A stretch of 31,276 bases of DNA from a virus, in IMG/VR virus record IMGVR_UViG_3300033145_001383, positions 1 through 31,276 of that record; one strand, given 5' to 3'. Position 1 is the first letter of the stretch; every line of letters starts with the position of its first letter. The notes beneath the pieces are model-generated. The model saw only the letters and a list, made by a program, of their open reading frames with translations, made no database searches and was not told the DNA's origin. The position numbers and the translations under genes are program-made. Shown one piece after another: positions 4,949 to 13,837 of the stretch.

Positions 4949-6061
4949 TTATTTCCTCTTTAGTCTTTTTGTTTTTATGTATGATGGCTTTGGTATAATT
5001 TTCCGTATCGGCGTTATAACATCATCTTTCCCCATAAATCTGTAATCAGCTAATATTTTCTTGCCTGTCTTTTTGTCTACTATATGTTTGGGCAATCCTA
5101 CTGTTACTGGCTTTGTAGGCCATGCAGGGCTTGAGTCTTCATCAATTTCGTAATTTTCTGTAATGACTTCAAGCAGGTCTTTATCGGGTTTTGTTTCGTC
5201 ATCAACAATAGTCTCTAATTCCATTTGTTCTATTTCTTCGTTAGTTGGATTGATGACTATTATTTCGTATTTTGTTTCGTCATAATCTCCAAAGGGATGA
5301 GGTATTAATAAGGGTTTGCAACTACCAAAACATGGATGATCAGGAGTTTGCCATAACTGCACAGTTTTTTTAGTAATTTTATCTCTTAATATAAAAATCC
5401 AGTGGATTTCGCCTGAAGATGTTACATATCTCCAACGCACAGCATAATCTCGGTCCCCTCCTCCATTATAAAGCGCAAAACGAGCTATTTGATCAGCAGA
5501 ATTTACGTTACTGGCAATTACAGACCCAACATTACTGGCTGGAGCCTGTACAAAAATATTTGGAGAAAAATTATATGCCGACATAGTAATATATGTCATA
5601 CCACCCGCCAATGTACCTGACAATGATCCTGTGCTTGTTTTAAGTTTTGCCTGAGTTACACTTGCACCTGTCGGCGTTCTCGTATCACTCAGCCTCGAAT
5701 CATTACCAGCACAAGCTTGAGCCGCTCCTGTGCCAAGACGTCTCAATCCATAGGTTCCTGCTGCGGGGTCTTTAATGGCTGCGGCAATCATTGCTCCTGT
5801 AATTTCATCTGATAGATTCGAGATTATAGGCTTGCTATTCGCAAAATCCCATACGCTTTGCCATGCATTGTTAGCTTCGTTTCGTATTTTCAGAATGTTT
5901 GCAGTAGTATCAAACCACCACATGCCAGCAACTGCATCAGCCGGAGTAGTAGTTCCTGAAAAGGCAGATTTCAATGCTGCAAAGTTGTTTTCTATGTTTT
6001 GCATGTCTGTTTGTACGGCATGGTCGGTCGCAAAAACGTTGTCAGTAAAATCTTGTGACAT
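4949..6061 (-). CDS. tail fibre-like / distal tail protein
   Basis: 370 residues. The N-terminal ~60 residues contain a 'SAFSGTTTPADAVAGMWWFD' block typical of phage fibre proteins that carry a short beta module (WFDTTANILKIRNEANNAW). The middle includes a LGTGAAQACAGNDSRLSDTR segment found in fibre shafts. The C-terminal ~130 residues are charged, with acidic and then basic stretches (ending KTKRLKRK), unlike a receptor-binding head, and may bind another tail part. It lies between the tip protein region and the large fibre gene. Confidence 0.65.
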   Translation of the reverse strand: MSQDFTDNVFATDHAVQTDMQNIENNFAALKSAFSGTTTPADAVAGMWWFDTTANILKIRNEANNAWQSVWDFANSKPIISNLSDEITGAMIAAAIKDPAAGTYGLRRLGTGAAQACAGNDSRLSDTRTPTGASVTQAKLKTSTGSLSGTLAGGMTYITMSAYNFSPNIFVQAPASNVGSVIASNVNSADQIARFALYNGGGDRDYAVRWRYVTSSGEIHWIFILRDKITKKTVQLWQTPDHPCFGSCKPLLIPHPFGDYDETKYEIIVINPTNEEIEQMELETIVDDETKPDKDLLEVITENYEIDEDSSPAWPTKPVTVGLPKHIVDKKTGKKILADYRFMGKDDVITPIRKIIPKPSYIKTKRLKRK

Positions 6062-8800: not shown

Positions 8801-9195
8801 TAGATTAGTCTCCTTGCCTGTACAGGTTTGAATCTTTTCCCGAGAGGCAGCACCATCACACCTTGCTCTTTTGTCGCAACCATTATATTATTATTCCCTA
8901 GATAAATTGATGGAAATCTTGAATCTTTATACTCTGCTACCACAATATCCCCTCGCTTTAGGAAATTTGTATCGGTTTCTTCCCCGATCGTTCTAAATAA
9001 TTCCATCATATCCTTAATGGCATTTTGGGGATTTTCCTCCCAATAGGCCATATAGGTATCAAGGTCATATTCTTTGTAGCTATTTGGCACATCAAAACCC
9101 ATATCTGTATAGATACTATATAGCAGCCCTAAGCAATTGCATTCATCAAAGGATTTTCCTAAATACTTTCTTGTTACATGTCCAAAGCCCTTCAT
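8800..9195 (-). CDS. NlpC/P60-like tail assembly protein, catalytic His apparently absent
   Basis: 131 residues, ATG 9195 overlapping the stop of the gpL-like gene (ATGA). The N-terminal FDECNCLGLLYSIY block corresponds to the NlpC/P60 nucleophile region, with C19 the likely catalytic position. The second motif reads GDIVVAEY followed by FPSIYLGNNNIM. Active enzymes normally carry His just before the 'GIYLG' strand; here Pro-Ser occupies that place. It is thus probably a structural or weakly active member. Position between the L-like and J-like genes matches lambda gpK and GTA gp14-type peptidases. Confidence 0.7.
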   Translation of the reverse strand: MKGFGHVTRKYLGKSFDECNCLGLLYSIYTDMGFDVPNSYKEYDLDTYMAYWEENPQNAIKDMMELFRTIGEETDTNFLKRGDIVVAEYKDSRFPSIYLGNNNIMVATKEQGVMVLPLGKRFKPVQARRLI

Positions 9196-9896
9196 GTATT
9201 TGTCCGCCCCCAGTATATTTCTCGTTCCATCAGATCTAACAACCAGCGGTAACCTGAATAATTATCTTGATTTCCCAATGCCACACATCTCGCATAACTT
9301 CTATCGCACCAAGTTTCACTGCCTGAATATGTACACTCTTTTCCTTTAAACGCCCATGTGCAGGCAGAAGGATGTTTCCGCAAGGTTTTTTTATTCCAGA
9401 ATATAAATTCATTAACCAATGTTATTTCTGCCGTTGGTTCTGTTAGTTTCCATGTTGAAACCAATCCTCGAAATACTTCAATCGGTTGAGCTATTATTGT
9501 GTTGTTGTTATCAAAAAAGCCAATCCACAAAATTCCCCATTTGTTCAAGATATTTTCATTCAAAAATACTGCCGACATTTGAAGATCAACATTTGCTATA
9601 TTAGTCTCGACTTTATCGACAGAAGACTTTGCACTATAATTTATTGTTGATATTGAAAATGGCATAGTTTCAAATTTATTACTTGAATATTCTTCCGCAA
9701 TTAGATAATCCCCGCTTTCTGTTATTAAGTAATCTTCACTTTCTGCCACTAATTGAATATAATTCGCGATATTCCAAAGATCAATATCTGCATCGGTGTA
9801 TCTAAGAATTGTATCGAACTGCAACTCAAGAAACCAGAACATTTTACCCTGTTCTGCGGCCGCAGCAGCTTCAAAAAATGGTGATAAATCTCTCAT
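9192..9896 (-). CDS. minor tail protein, lambda gpL-like with Cys cluster
   Basis: 234 residues, ATG 9896 overlapping the stop of the homing endonuclease by 4 bases. The C-terminal part carries four cysteines in the gpL pattern (CTWAFKGKECTYSG, then WCDRSYARC), followed by NYSGYRW. In lambda gpL, C-terminal cysteines bind an iron-sulphur cluster; the same is inferred here. Residues ~52-70 contain a near-repeat (EDYLITESGDYLIAEE), an insertion-like peptide also seen in other phage tail proteins. It would sit at the distal tail hub, between the DUF2460-like ring and the tip. Confidence 0.75.
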   Translation of the reverse strand: MRDLSPFFEAAAAAEQGKMFWFLELQFDTILRYTDADIDLWNIANYIQLVAESEDYLITESGDYLIAEEYSSNKFETMPFSISTINYSAKSSVDKVETNIANVDLQMSAVFLNENILNKWGILWIGFFDNNNTIIAQPIEVFRGLVSTWKLTEPTAEITLVNEFIFWNKKTLRKHPSACTWAFKGKECTYSGSETWCDRSYARCVALGNQDNYSGYRWLLDLMEREIYWGRTNT

Positions 9897-10735
9897 GCAG
9901 GGGAAAGTCCTTTATGAAATTCTTTTATTTTACTTTTCACTGTACTTATATCCTTTAATTCATGCTCCCAAATTACCAAGGTATTAAATCCATATTGTTT
10001 AAAATGGTCAATTCTATCCTGCGGGTCATCATCCTTATGCCAATAATCACCATATAATTCTATCAGCTTTTTTTGACCATTAATATTCATAAAATCTGGA
10101 TTCTTGCCGCCTAACCAAAATTGAAAATCGCCGACATATTTATATTCTTTTGGAAAGAGCTTATTAAGGAGATTACCCAAGTTTGTCTCTGCCTTGTTGG
10201 GACTTATGTTTCGTGCTTTTTGCATTTTATTTTGGTATTCCGCATTTTTCCAAAGAGCGGACACTGTCAAAGATATTCTTTCCTTTGTTTTTTCCGTCAT
10301 TTTTTGTTTTGCGATTGAAATATTTCTTTTATGTTCTTCAGAAAAAGTCATGCCCTTTCTGGAGACAGATATTTTCTTTTTTGTTTCTTCAGAAAACTTC
10401 CTCCCCATATGAGCCAAGGACATTTTTTTCTTTGTTTCCTCAGAAAGTTCTTTGCCTATATTAAACAAAGATAATTTTTTCTTAGCTTCCTCGGAATGAT
10501 GTTTTCCAAACATTGGATGTTTTTCTCCACTGTGAGCTAAGCTTACTTTTCTTTTTGTTTCCTCAGAATGTTTGTATCCTTTTGTGTTTGTATTCCCCAT
10601 CATAGCCAGAGATAACTTTGCCTTTTGTTTATCGGAGAATTTCTTTCCTTTTCTATTATGACCATGGATATATTTTCTTCCAGGGTTTACAATTTGTCCG
10701 CAACCACATTGACATTTTTGTGTTATCGTTTTCAT
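9893..10735 (-). CDS. homing endonuclease, NUMOD3 repeats plus Vsr/EDxHD-type nuclease
   Basis: 280 residues, free-standing between two tail genes. The N-terminus has a small Cys cluster (CQCGCGQIV, then IHGHNRKGKK). Residues ~30-150 are tandem NUMOD3 DNA-binding motifs (repeated S-EETKKKMSLAHMG-like units, about seven). Residues ~178-265 form a very-short-patch-repair-like nuclease: E183, PDF with D214, KLIELYGDYWH with E226, D230 and H233, then IWEHEL. This matches the EDxHD homing endonucleases such as I-Bth0305I. It would cut phage genomes lacking the insertion and spread by repair. It overlaps the downstream gene by ATGA and its last codons mimic the upstream gene's end. Confidence 0.9.
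   Translation of the reverse strand: MKTITQKCQCGCGQIVNPGRKYIHGHNRKGKKFSDKQKAKLSLAMMGNTNTKGYKHSEETKRKVSLAHSGEKHPMFGKHHSEEAKKKLSLFNIGKELSEETKKKMSLAHMGRKFSEETKKKISVSRKGMTFSEEHKRNISIAKQKMTEKTKERISLTVSALWKNAEYQNKMQKARNISPNKAETNLGNLLNKLFPKEYKYVGDFQFWLGGKNPDFMNINGQKKLIELYGDYWHKDDDPQDRIDHFKQYGFNTLVIWEHELKDISTVKSKIKEFHKGLSPA
9899..9913. repeat. 15-bp direct repeat, left copy, flanking the homing endonuclease
   Basis: The plus strand reads AGGGGAAAGTCCTTT, matching 10749-10763 at 14 of 15 positions. On the coding strand it spells the AAAGGACTTTC-CCT that ends the endonuclease gene and also supplies the AAAGGA ribosome-binding site for the gpL-like gene at 9896. Confidence 0.8.
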
Positions 10736-10742
10736 GATTCTC

Positions 10743-11327
10743 CTATTGAGGTGAAAGTCCTTTCAATTTTATCCCATAAGAATAAATCCGTTCAATAAAT
10801 GTTTCTCTTGGTAATTTGTCTTCTGCGAATCTCGCTCGTATTCTCAAATAGCCGGTAAAATCCGCTGTAATAATTACCCCCTCGCCTGGTGCTGTATTAT
10901 ACTCGACTCTATCGCTGTCAGAATTCCCTCCTCCGACCAAGATAGATGTACTTGACGTTACATCCACACCATCTGAATAGATAGTATGAGATACTGTCTC
11001 TCGTCCGGGGATATCGAATATTTTAGTAACCCCATCCCCAGTCCCACAGTATTGCTTTTTATGATTGAATTTATGCCCAAACAATAAGGACAAATCATAA
11101 ATATAAAAAGCCTCATAAGCTCCATTACAAGCCAGATAAAATTCCCATATTGTTTTTACTTTGGCAAAACTTATATTTTCATAACGTACAACAACATCAT
11201 ATTTTGGATATAATTGTTTTTGCCTTCTTTGTTCTCCTCCCCCATCAAAATCAGAAACAAGAGTGTTGAATTGAGGACTAATAACTAAATGTTTCGGAGC
11301 AGGATTTATTTCAGGAAAAGTAGCCAT
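10743..11327 (-). CDS. distal tail protein, DUF2460 / GTA gp12-like
   Basis: 194 residues, ATG 11327 sharing a base with the tape-measure stop (TAATG). The N-terminal region (FNTLVSDFDGGGEQRRQKQL, later IWEFYLACNGAYEAFYIYDL) matches the DUF2460 pattern: a 'GG-EQR' turn, then a helix followed by G--E-F---D. A second beta domain follows (GDGVTKIFDI ... GVIITADFTG) ending RARFAEDKLPRETF. GTA homologues form part of the distal tail ring. Its position directly after the tape measure agrees. It ends KGLSPQ, with TAG followed by GAG just before the homing endonuclease start. Confidence 0.7.
   Translation of the reverse strand: MATFPEINPAPKHLVISPQFNTLVSDFDGGGEQRRQKQLYPKYDVVVRYENISFAKVKTIWEFYLACNGAYEAFYIYDLSLLFGHKFNHKKQYCGTGDGVTKIFDIPGRETVSHTIYSDGVDVTSSTSILVGGGNSDSDRVEYNTAPGEGVIITADFTGYLRIRARFAEDKLPRETFIERIYSYGIKLKGLSPQ
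10749..10763. repeat. 15-bp direct repeat, right copy, end of the DUF2460-like gene
   Basis: The plus strand reads AGGTGAAAGTCCTTT, one mismatch from the copy at 9899-9913, exactly 850 bases away. On the coding strand it encodes the final KGLSP of the DUF2460-like protein, mirrored by HKGLSPA at the endonuclease C-terminus. Confidence 0.8.
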
Positions 11328-13837
11328 TAAACTGTACCTCTGATTGTGTCTAAAAGTCCCGACCTATTTTCCAGAGCATCATTTACCACTGTTATGATTG
11401 ATTCAGGATTTCTTTTTACCATATCAGCAAAACTTTTTGCATCATTTGCAACAACCACTATTGTATTTCCGCCACCACCTTCTGATTGCACTCCAAGTTT
11501 CCCGTTTGAATTACGAGTCAATGGCATAATTGCTTCCGGCCCTGCCTCTCCCATAAGACCTGCGCCTTTTGCAAAAGAAAAACGAGTGGGTTTATTCACG
11601 ACTTGATTTGAATGAGAATTAATTCCTTCTGGAAAAGCACCGCCTTTTGACCAAGTTGTTATAATGTTTGGGATACCTTGTTGCGCCGCTGTATTGACTC
11701 CTGTGCCTGCGATCGTAGTCGTTCCCCCACTTAACCATGCTCCCGCCGCCTTCATTCCCAAGCTAAGCCAACCACCGCCACCGCCAAACATCGGCTCTAT
11801 TACAGATTTTTGAATCATCATTTGAGTTATCATTTTGCCGAAAGATTCTGCAATACTTTTGAAAGTAACCTCTGCTCCCCATAACATATCATTAAGAGTA
11901 GAACTAAACCCACTTGCCCAGCCTTGCATTGCATTGTCCATAGACTTGTATTTATCTTCCTCTAATTTTTTCATTTCTTCTGCATACAATTTATTTATTC
12001 TATCTTCTTTTATTTTAGCTTCTATTAAAGTGTCATTTTTATCTTTCAGTACTTCTCTCCATATTTCAACTTGCCTATCCAATTGTGCTCGTTCAAGATC
12101 AAATTTACTTTTTCCCATTTCAAAATATTGATCATCAAATTGAGATTGAATATCAAGTTTTTCCTGTTCGGCCGATATAATTTGTTCAAGAGTTTTGCCA
12201 GAAAAGTTTTTCCTTAATTCAAGTGAATTTTCAAAATATGCAAGTTGTTTGTCTCTCATTCCATCAAACATTTCTGTATGTGCATCACTTCTATTTTTCC
12301 ATATTTTATACTCTTCTTTGGTAACGGCAGCAAATTTAGAAACAGAGGTTTTAGTAGGTATTTTAGTTGGGTCTGCAAGAACTTCTTCCACCCTACTTGT
12401 TCCTTTTGAAATACCAAGAAGTTGATTTAATTTAGCAATCTTCTTGTCGTAACTCGCAATGGATATTTCGTTTCCTCTTTCTTCAGCACGGGCACGCCAT
12501 TTAATAGCTTGAGATAATTCTCGCTCTAATTCTGTTTGTGCCACCAACCCACGACCTGTTTTAAGAAACTGATCAACCGCTCCGGTTCCATCTGTTAATG
12601 CTTCTTTCCATGATATAACACCTGTTGAAGCAAGCCCCATTGCCTGGAATGTCTTTACCCATATATTTGTAAATTCAACGCCAAGCCCGATAACCTTTGC
12701 CATTGCTTTTGACAATTCGAATATATTTTTTGCTAACTCTGCAACCTGTTCAATTGCTTGTGGATTTTGTCTAATCCATTCAGTTGTAGATTGTACAACT
12801 TCCCGTATGTAATCTTTATATTTATCGAATGTTCTTAATAATTCTTCCTCAATCGTTGAATTTAAAGTTTTCAAATCAACATCAAGAGAATCTCTTATTA
12901 TTTCTGCAAGTTTTTTAGTTGCTCCTTTGTTATTTATTATTTTTTGGGTTAGCTCCTCAAACATTTCAATATTATTCATTAAAATAGCGGCAGTTTTAAC
13001 TTGTCTTGCCCCAAACGCATCTGCAATTTCAACAGCCCCCCATTGTTCTTCTTTCATCCTTTTCAAAACTTCTATTAATGGAGTTCCTGCATCCAATCCT
13101 AACTTTTTTGCAGCCTTGGCACTTCTTAAAAGAGCCATATTAAGGCCGGAGCCAGCCATTTCAGCTTTAATGCCTGAATTAGCAAGAGTACCAAGCAATG
13201 CCGCTGTTTGTTCAACCGTTAATCCAAAGAGTTTTGCAGTAGGCGCAACCATTTTGAACGATTCACCTAACATTAATACATTTGTATTACTGTTGGACGA
13301 AGTAGTTATAAATGCATCATTAACACGACTTAGTTCTTCAACTGACAATCCAAAAGCAGTTAAAACATCTGTGGTTATATCGGTTGCCCTCGCAAGACCT
13401 ACTTGCCCCGCAGTTGCTAAATCTAATGTACCAGGCAAAGCTGCAATACTTTTCTTAGCATCAAACCCAGCCGCAGCCAAAAACTTTAATGCTCCTGCCG
13501 CTTCAGTTGCTGTATGTTCTGTAGTAGCTCCCATCTCACGAGCAATAGCAGTTAAATCGGCCAAATCTTTTCCGGTGGCGCCTGACCATGCCTGCACTGT
13601 CTTCATTGTAGACTCAAATTCACGACCTAATGAAATAATTCTTTTGGTTAAAGCAACAACCCCCATCGTAATACTTGCAACAGCAACCGCTCCCATAACC
13701 TTGACGGTTCTGTTTAAGCTTTTTTCTATCTTTTTAGCAGCAGCTTCAACTCTACTCCCCGCTTTTTTAAGATCACCAGGAAGCTTTTTTGAATCTCCTC
13801 GAATCTCAATATATGCCCCTCCTGCCTTGACTGCCAT
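11327..13837 (-). CDS. tail tape measure protein
   Basis: 836 residues, ATG 13837 overlapping the stop of the T frame (TAATG). An N-terminal hydrophobic segment (VMGAVAVASITMGVVAL) precedes a TP901-type tape-measure core at ~70-270 (FESTMKTVQAWSGATGKDL, EHTATEAAGALKFLAAAGFD). A long helical and coiled-coil body follows, then another hydrophobic section (MMIQKSVIEPMFGGGGGWL). The C-terminal block GLMGEAGPEAIMPL is characteristic of lambda-type tape measures. It sets tail length and would be ejected with the DNA. It follows the G/G-T chaperones, the usual order in siphoviruses. Confidence 0.9.
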   Translation of the reverse strand: MAVKAGGAYIEIRGDSKKLPGDLKKAGSRVEAAAKKIEKSLNRTVKVMGAVAVASITMGVVALTKRIISLGREFESTMKTVQAWSGATGKDLADLTAIAREMGATTEHTATEAAGALKFLAAAGFDAKKSIAALPGTLDLATAGQVGLARATDITTDVLTAFGLSVEELSRVNDAFITTSSNSNTNVLMLGESFKMVAPTAKLFGLTVEQTAALLGTLANSGIKAEMAGSGLNMALLRSAKAAKKLGLDAGTPLIEVLKRMKEEQWGAVEIADAFGARQVKTAAILMNNIEMFEELTQKIINNKGATKKLAEIIRDSLDVDLKTLNSTIEEELLRTFDKYKDYIREVVQSTTEWIRQNPQAIEQVAELAKNIFELSKAMAKVIGLGVEFTNIWVKTFQAMGLASTGVISWKEALTDGTGAVDQFLKTGRGLVAQTELERELSQAIKWRARAEERGNEISIASYDKKIAKLNQLLGISKGTSRVEEVLADPTKIPTKTSVSKFAAVTKEEYKIWKNRSDAHTEMFDGMRDKQLAYFENSLELRKNFSGKTLEQIISAEQEKLDIQSQFDDQYFEMGKSKFDLERAQLDRQVEIWREVLKDKNDTLIEAKIKEDRINKLYAEEMKKLEEDKYKSMDNAMQGWASGFSSTLNDMLWGAEVTFKSIAESFGKMITQMMIQKSVIEPMFGGGGGWLSLGMKAAGAWLSGGTTTIAGTGVNTAAQQGIPNIITTWSKGGAFPEGINSHSNQVVNKPTRFSFAKGAGLMGEAGPEAIMPLTRNSNGKLGVQSEGGGGNTIVVVANDAKSFADMVKRNPESIITVVNDALENRSGLLDTIRGTV

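Follow-up and report, generated by a model that had tools for sequence, protein, structure and literature searches.

A homing endonuclease gene in a phage tail operon probably replaced the end of the upstream gene and took over the displaced native end

Results

A repeated gene end flanks the endonuclease gene

The stretch of viral DNA analysed here (the window; 31,276 nucleotides, IMG/VR record IMGVR_UViG_3300033145_001383) carries a free-standing homing endonuclease gene between two tail genes. This gene probably entered the tail operon by asymmetric homing, whereby the end of the upstream gene would have been replaced and its native end displaced to the far side of the insertion. We observed a repeat at the two gene ends, both junction alleles in endonuclease-free relatives, a mosaic tract in the upstream gene, an extra tail on the endonuclease and the same architecture at unrelated sites. 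The features are listed below; form A and form B denote the overlapping and the spaced junction of endonuclease-free relatives.

10743-11327, minus strand: DUF2460-like tail gene, 5′ of the endonuclease gene, ending KGLSPQ-TAG (open reading frame; Pfam PF09343, E 1.6e-15)
10743-11055, minus strand: 3′ part of the DUF2460 gene, putatively imported (donor-type), 5′ border approximate (identity to L101, L102 and L093; maximum chi-square breakpoints)
10749-10763, minus strand: upstream repeat copy AAAGGACTTTCACCT, within the form-B end common to L101 and L102 (sequence and junction comparison)
10736-10745, minus strand: DUF2460 stop codon and endonuclease leader TAGGAGAATC with an AGGAG element, matching the form-B leaders of L101 and L102
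9893-10735, minus strand: free-standing NUMOD3/EDxHD-type homing endonuclease gene, 280 aa (open reading frame; NUMOD3, E 4e-25; PHROG homing endonuclease)
10263-10641, minus strand: tandem NUMOD3-type repeats, putative DNA-binding region (seven copies of about 40 nt; NUMOD3 profile)
9911-10204, minus strand: nuclease domain, residues 178-275 (profile match to I-Bth0305I, 3r3p; structure match)
9893-9913, minus strand: putative displaced native DUF2460 3′ end AAAGGACTTTCCCCTGCATGA, now endonuclease C-terminus and stop codon (past the point at which most homologues end; form-A end as in L093, L103, L095 and L097)
9908-9913, minus strand: AAAGGA, 11 nt 5′ of the downstream ATG, a candidate ribosome-binding element for that gene (same position in form-A relatives)
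9893-9896, minus strand: ATGA, shared by the endonuclease stop codon and the start codon of the next gene
9192-9896, minus strand: downstream tail gene, 'gpL-like' (match to PHROG 2048, 'tail protein'), outside the imported tract

The two minus-strand copies, AAAGGACTTTCACCT at the DUF2460-like gene end (10749-10763) and AAAGGACTTTCCCCT at the endonuclease gene end (9899-9913), agree at 14 of 15 bases with a spacing of 850 nt, as the original prediction had it and at the position it gave. Both copies are read in the same frame (KGLSP) and stand at equal distance from the stop codon, the DUF2460-like protein ending in KLKGLSPQ and the endonuclease in EFHKGLSPA, in each case KGLSP and one further residue. 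As raw DNA the repeat is no more than moderately improbable, an equally good local match being found in 28 of 1700 mismatched endonuclease/upstream pairs, and the 15-mer pattern alone does not discriminate (three matches in the window versus 3.5 expected at three mismatches). A survey of flanking repeats on DNA alone gave mostly matches near noise and was therefore replaced by a comparison of stop-anchored protein ends with mismatched-pair controls. The stop-anchored match of the window's two protein ends is not chance. Five of the last six residues are identical, and at least four are identical in none of 3782 mismatched endonuclease/upstream pairs. The presence of the repeat at unrelated endonuclease termini had been named as an observation that would speak against the original prediction; this 15-mer is absent there, and what other endonuclease loci repeat is their own local gene end.

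The window joins two natural junction alleles

DUF2460 relatives were recovered at 22 loci, none of which has an endonuclease at this junction (0/22), so that the DUF2460/gpL-like junction shows the presence/absence polymorphism of free-standing phage homing endonuclease genes. Among annotated phages no relative of the window DUF2460 protein was found. Most endonuclease-free relatives (L093/L007, L103/L009, L095, L097, L091/L104 and L005/L105) carry form A (GC-ATGA-GAG), in which the DUF2460 stop lies within the ATGA of the next gene. In L093/L007, L103/L009, L095, L097, L091 and L005 the overlap is preceded by an AAAGGA or AAGGGG element in the KG codons. As the stop/start overlap is found in these relatives and also in the more distant L111-L113, this overlapping arrangement is probably ancestral. 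The junction that the original prediction had drawn for the ancestor, with the DUF2460 gene supplying AAAGGA and an overlapping stop, is thus seen in uninterrupted form in relatives, and the endonuclease occupies the place where the upstream gene supplied these elements. An overlapping junction with exactly one copy of AAAGGACTTTCCCCT, which had also been predicted, did not occur among the relatives found.

Form B (CAA-TAGGAGAA..ATG) is a spaced junction present in two endonuclease-free contigs, L101 and L102, whose DUF2460 genes end with AAAGGACTTTCACCTCAATAGGRGAAWYATGAGAG, giving KGLSPQ and a stop codon, followed by a short leader that contains a Shine-Dalgarno-like element. In both contigs this end (TAG and an AGGAG/GGGG leader) lies at positions 5579-5590. 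In L101 and L102, form B may go back to the donor state that preceded the endonuclease, or it may be a scar of endonuclease loss in which the two ATGA motifs recombined.

In the window, form B precedes the endonuclease gene (CAATAGGAGAATC-ATG) and form A follows it (GCATGAGAG). Judged by these junctions the window combines two natural alleles and is not a single allele with a duplicated stretch. The original prediction had the insertion supply a copy of the gene end, which is not supported; it is the copy at the endonuclease end that resembles the original and the copy in the upstream gene that resembles an import.

In one of the form-A relatives the gpL-like gene (L097:2101-3381) encodes 426 aa versus 234, and by the look of its sequence the inserted stretch resembles a laminin-G/concanavalin-type domain.

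The upstream gene is mosaic up to the endonuclease

The first half of the window DUF2460 gene is 64-71% identical to the clade of L101, L102 and L093, no closer than to other relatives, whereas its last ~310 nt are 81-97% identical to this clade. The final 39 nt are 95-97% identical to the form-B contigs L101 and L102 compared to 77% for the form-A contig L093. Maximum chi-square breakpoints against L093, L101 and L102 reached 43.6-52.4 (p=0.0005), whereas control pairs gave at most 16.2. The gene 3′ of the endonuclease shows no such rise: it is 63-73% identical to L102 throughout, and its start reaches 82% at most with L091. The imported tract hence extends as far as the endonuclease gene, and by this pattern of identities the 3′ half of DUF2460 is a recombinant tract ending there, as expected for one-sided co-conversion. 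Because mosaicism is usual in phage genes, the tract could also predate the insertion. A second, small mosaic patch lies at 11327-11420: here, at the end of the tape-measure gene, ~90 nt show 88-90% identity to L102, clearly more than the preceding region.

The endonuclease carries an extra tail

In a profile search the C-terminal domain of the window enzyme matched I-Bth0305I (PDB 3r3p) with an E-value of 3e-5, the match covering part of the domain. The nuclease domain was modelled with a pLDDT of 91, and the best PDB matches of the model in Foldseek were 3r3p_A and 3r3p_B (E 4e-5, TM 0.71-0.73 by target length); the predicted structure has the Vsr-like nuclease fold of EDxHD homing endonucleases of the I-Bth0305I type. 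In an alignment of 26 relatives E34 and D65 of the nuclease domain are invariant and H84 is nearly invariant, and these we take to belong to the conserved E, D, H, D residues of the EDxHD motif. On this model the enzyme is an EDxHD-type (I-Bth0305I-like) NUMOD3 homing endonuclease for which cleavage and mobility are predicted. It shares the nuclease fold and several conserved positions with I-Bth0305I, but the latter is named a mobile intron protein in the PDB, whereas the gene in the window is free-standing and contains NUMOD3 repeats. Both flanking genes consist of complete open reading frames that align end to end with those of endonuclease-free relatives, so splicing would not be needed.

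Most endonucleases in the alignment end within a few residues of EFH, and those of the window, L169 and L174 have extra tails. The GLSPA tail of the window enzyme was modelled with low confidence (pLDDT 48 in the last block). Its last 21 nt extend past the stopping point of homologues and look like the displaced native DUF2460 end, in which the ATGA overlap and AAAGGA are still present. With 21 nt this end is short in the window, and its native origin rests on form A and on the sister cases below.

Matches to the endonuclease in annotated phages are all below 60% identity, and none covers 80% of the protein. A close relative (78% in the nuclease domain) is encoded at positions 3689-4300 of contig IMGVR_UViG_3300023246_000149 (L120), which has a DUF2460/gpL relative elsewhere. 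In the genome collection 13 nuclease relatives were found; L212-L220, L223 and L224 are mostly archaeal (Borrarchaeum, Nanoarchaeota, Woesearchaeota, Pacearchaeota; E 8e-39 to 5e-5).

A proposed route of entry

In the ancestor, the DUF2460 gene would have ended in KGLSPA-TGA, its stop would have overlapped the start of the next gene (form A), and its last codons would have contained AAAGGA, 11 nt ahead of that start. A break at this gene end or close to it would have been repaired off an endonuclease-bearing relative, bringing in ~310 nt of donor DUF2460 with its own end (KGLSPQ-TAG and the AGGAG leader, form B) together with the endonuclease gene. The other join would have fallen within the final resident codons, so that the native 21-nt end was moved downstream and not lost. 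Read in frame, the displaced end would now serve as the C-terminus and stop of the endonuclease, with AAAGGA and the ATGA overlap retained. The C-terminus of the upstream protein would thereby be complete, and the downstream gene would keep the context in which it is initiated. We infer cleavage as the cause, this order of events and a translational benefit; selection for coupled translation or for a kept start context is plausible. No endonuclease-bearing donor or near-identical recipient was present among the relatives found, and that the window contig is a metagenome assembly counts against the proposed route.

The KGLSPA tail could instead have been on the endonuclease already, gained earlier at the same junction in another phage, with the window inheriting the cassette by ordinary recombination. 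Phages recombine freely, and form B in L101 and L102 makes the left end of the cassette older than the window. However, such inheritance shifts the same event into another lineage and does not replace it, and no donor of this kind was found among the relatives recovered, which makes it an unlikely account.

Other endonuclease sites show the same architecture

In two sets of endonuclease loci, the end of the endonuclease was compared with that of the preceding gene. At L169 the two protein ends are RLDSTVIGMSEDDIKFATSAA and RLDSTVIGMSEDEIRFETSAA, with 54 of 66 nt identical. At L174, which lies on the contig of L012, both proteins end in HTEATMYAVK (30/34 nt). A NUMOD3 endonuclease of the other set, L086, ends in IQGF like the gene before it (14/15 nt); four of its last six residues are the same, a level found in 1 of 2352 mismatched pairs, and TAGGAG is retained 5′ of the next gene. 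Weaker end repeats were seen at L196 (MIG) and L145 (VKI). In the related tail operon of L130 (172-1107) the endonuclease gene lies between the 'gpL-like' and NlpC genes, and GGGGAAGACAACTTGA, which matches the native gpL-like end of relatives and overlaps the TTG start of the next gene, follows the endonuclease stop. The cases therefore share a kept start context of the next gene, not a fused tail. At the sites of L169, L174 and L130, endonuclease-free relatives have the native gene end followed by a spacer or the next gene. A foreign replacement 3′ end together with a displaced native 3′ end is thus found in the window as well as at the sister sites. Among 62 testable loci of this endonuclease family only a minority has an end repeat.

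Taken together, the two copies in the window, L169 and L174 differ at 17 positions, of which 14 are synonymous and three are not, whereas without constraint about 24% of differences should be synonymous (P about 8e-7). From this synonymous excess the copies had most likely been working gene ends of different lineages, and diverged as such, before they were joined, which argues against a target duplication at insertion, the other origin that had been suggested for the repeat. A staggered cut at a single target would leave two identical copies of ~15 nt that later drift apart, and two near-identical 15-nt copies do flank the insertion. However, the two sides carry different junction alleles, the 3′ half of DUF2460 appears recombinant, the copies differ almost only synonymously, and the repeat length varies from ~15 to 66 nt between sites. 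Transposition would give identical flanking repeats of constant length from one target, which is not what these sites have, and homing endonucleases are not known to produce duplications of 15-66 nt. Target duplication is therefore improbable and largely refuted. Still less credible is convergence, in which selection to initiate the downstream gene shaped an unrelated KGLSP/AAAGGA end on the endonuclease: AAAGGA and the ATGA overlap are the translation-useful parts of the repeat, but the identity extends over the full five codons, equally far from the stop in both genes, and never occurs in mismatched pairs, and the repeats of L169 and L174 reach far past any ribosome-binding element. Both readings were rejected, convergence having been disfavoured by the sister cases already.

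Discussion

The closest known case is the mORF gene hybrid of fungal mitochondria, described for Glomus atp6, atp9, cox2 and nad3 and earlier for Allomyces atp6, Rhizopus atp9 and Mortierella cox2 (PMC3630166). In these hybrids, as in the window, an endonuclease ORF lies at a gene 3′ end between a foreign C-terminus upstream and the displaced native C-terminus downstream, and the copies differ mainly at synonymous sites, as at the present sites (PMC3630166). The hybrids involve LAGLIDADG or GIY-YIG enzymes and mitochondrial genes, and the displaced end is often untranscribed (PMC3630166). In contrast, the window has an EDxHD-type enzyme in a phage, and the displaced end is an in-frame endonuclease tail that keeps the stop-start overlap of the operon. 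The window thus works like a mORF gene hybrid but is not a member of that group, given its EDxHD-type fold and its origin in a virus record.

In the searched passages of a paper on nuclease genes at phage genetic-exchange boundaries, the recombination boundary coincides with the endonuclease gene as in the window, and replaced and displaced gene ends are not described (PMC10448857). Our literature search, which took in few subscription papers, found no phage description of gene-end replacement or displacement.

It is conceivable, although we hold this with somewhat less than even confidence, that free-standing phage homing endonucleases have repeatedly spread as gene-end replacement cassettes. 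They would break the last codons of an operon gene, bring a working substitute end and reuse the displaced end in two ways, to form the endonuclease C-terminus and to provide the following gene with its initiation context; an insertion among tightly overlapping genes would then be nearly neutral. If the endonuclease were lost later, a scar would remain (form B, as in L101 and L102), with the next gene switched from a stop-start overlap to its own leader. This suggests a route by which an endonuclease without intron or intein may enter dense, overlapping phage operons, leaving the cut gene intact and the next gene unsilenced. It would extend to phages an arrangement described, in the papers found, only in fungal mitochondria, and would link endonucleases with gene-end replacement and with shifts in translational coupling. 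Synonymously diverged gene-end repeats could serve as a sequence signature for finding such events.

The free-standing homing endonucleases of phages (T4 seg and mob, intronless homing) resemble the window in their intergenic position between conserved genes, their co-converted flanks and their overlap with the upstream stop, and the word duplication does not occur in the T4 mobile-DNA review (PMC2988022). When seven endonuclease insertions of T4 were tested, none had an upstream-end repeat, and mobC had a possible start repeat. The start of mobC (42906-43538 in T4, NC_000866), ATGAATTATGACAGAATCTAT, is identical at 19 of 21 nt to the start of the downstream nrdG, and T-even phages that lack mobC have a direct nrdD/nrdG ATGA junction. 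The mobC/nrdG pair may be a mirror case of gene-end swapping, but is no more than a lead, because HNH endonucleases of the mobC kind often have similar starts.
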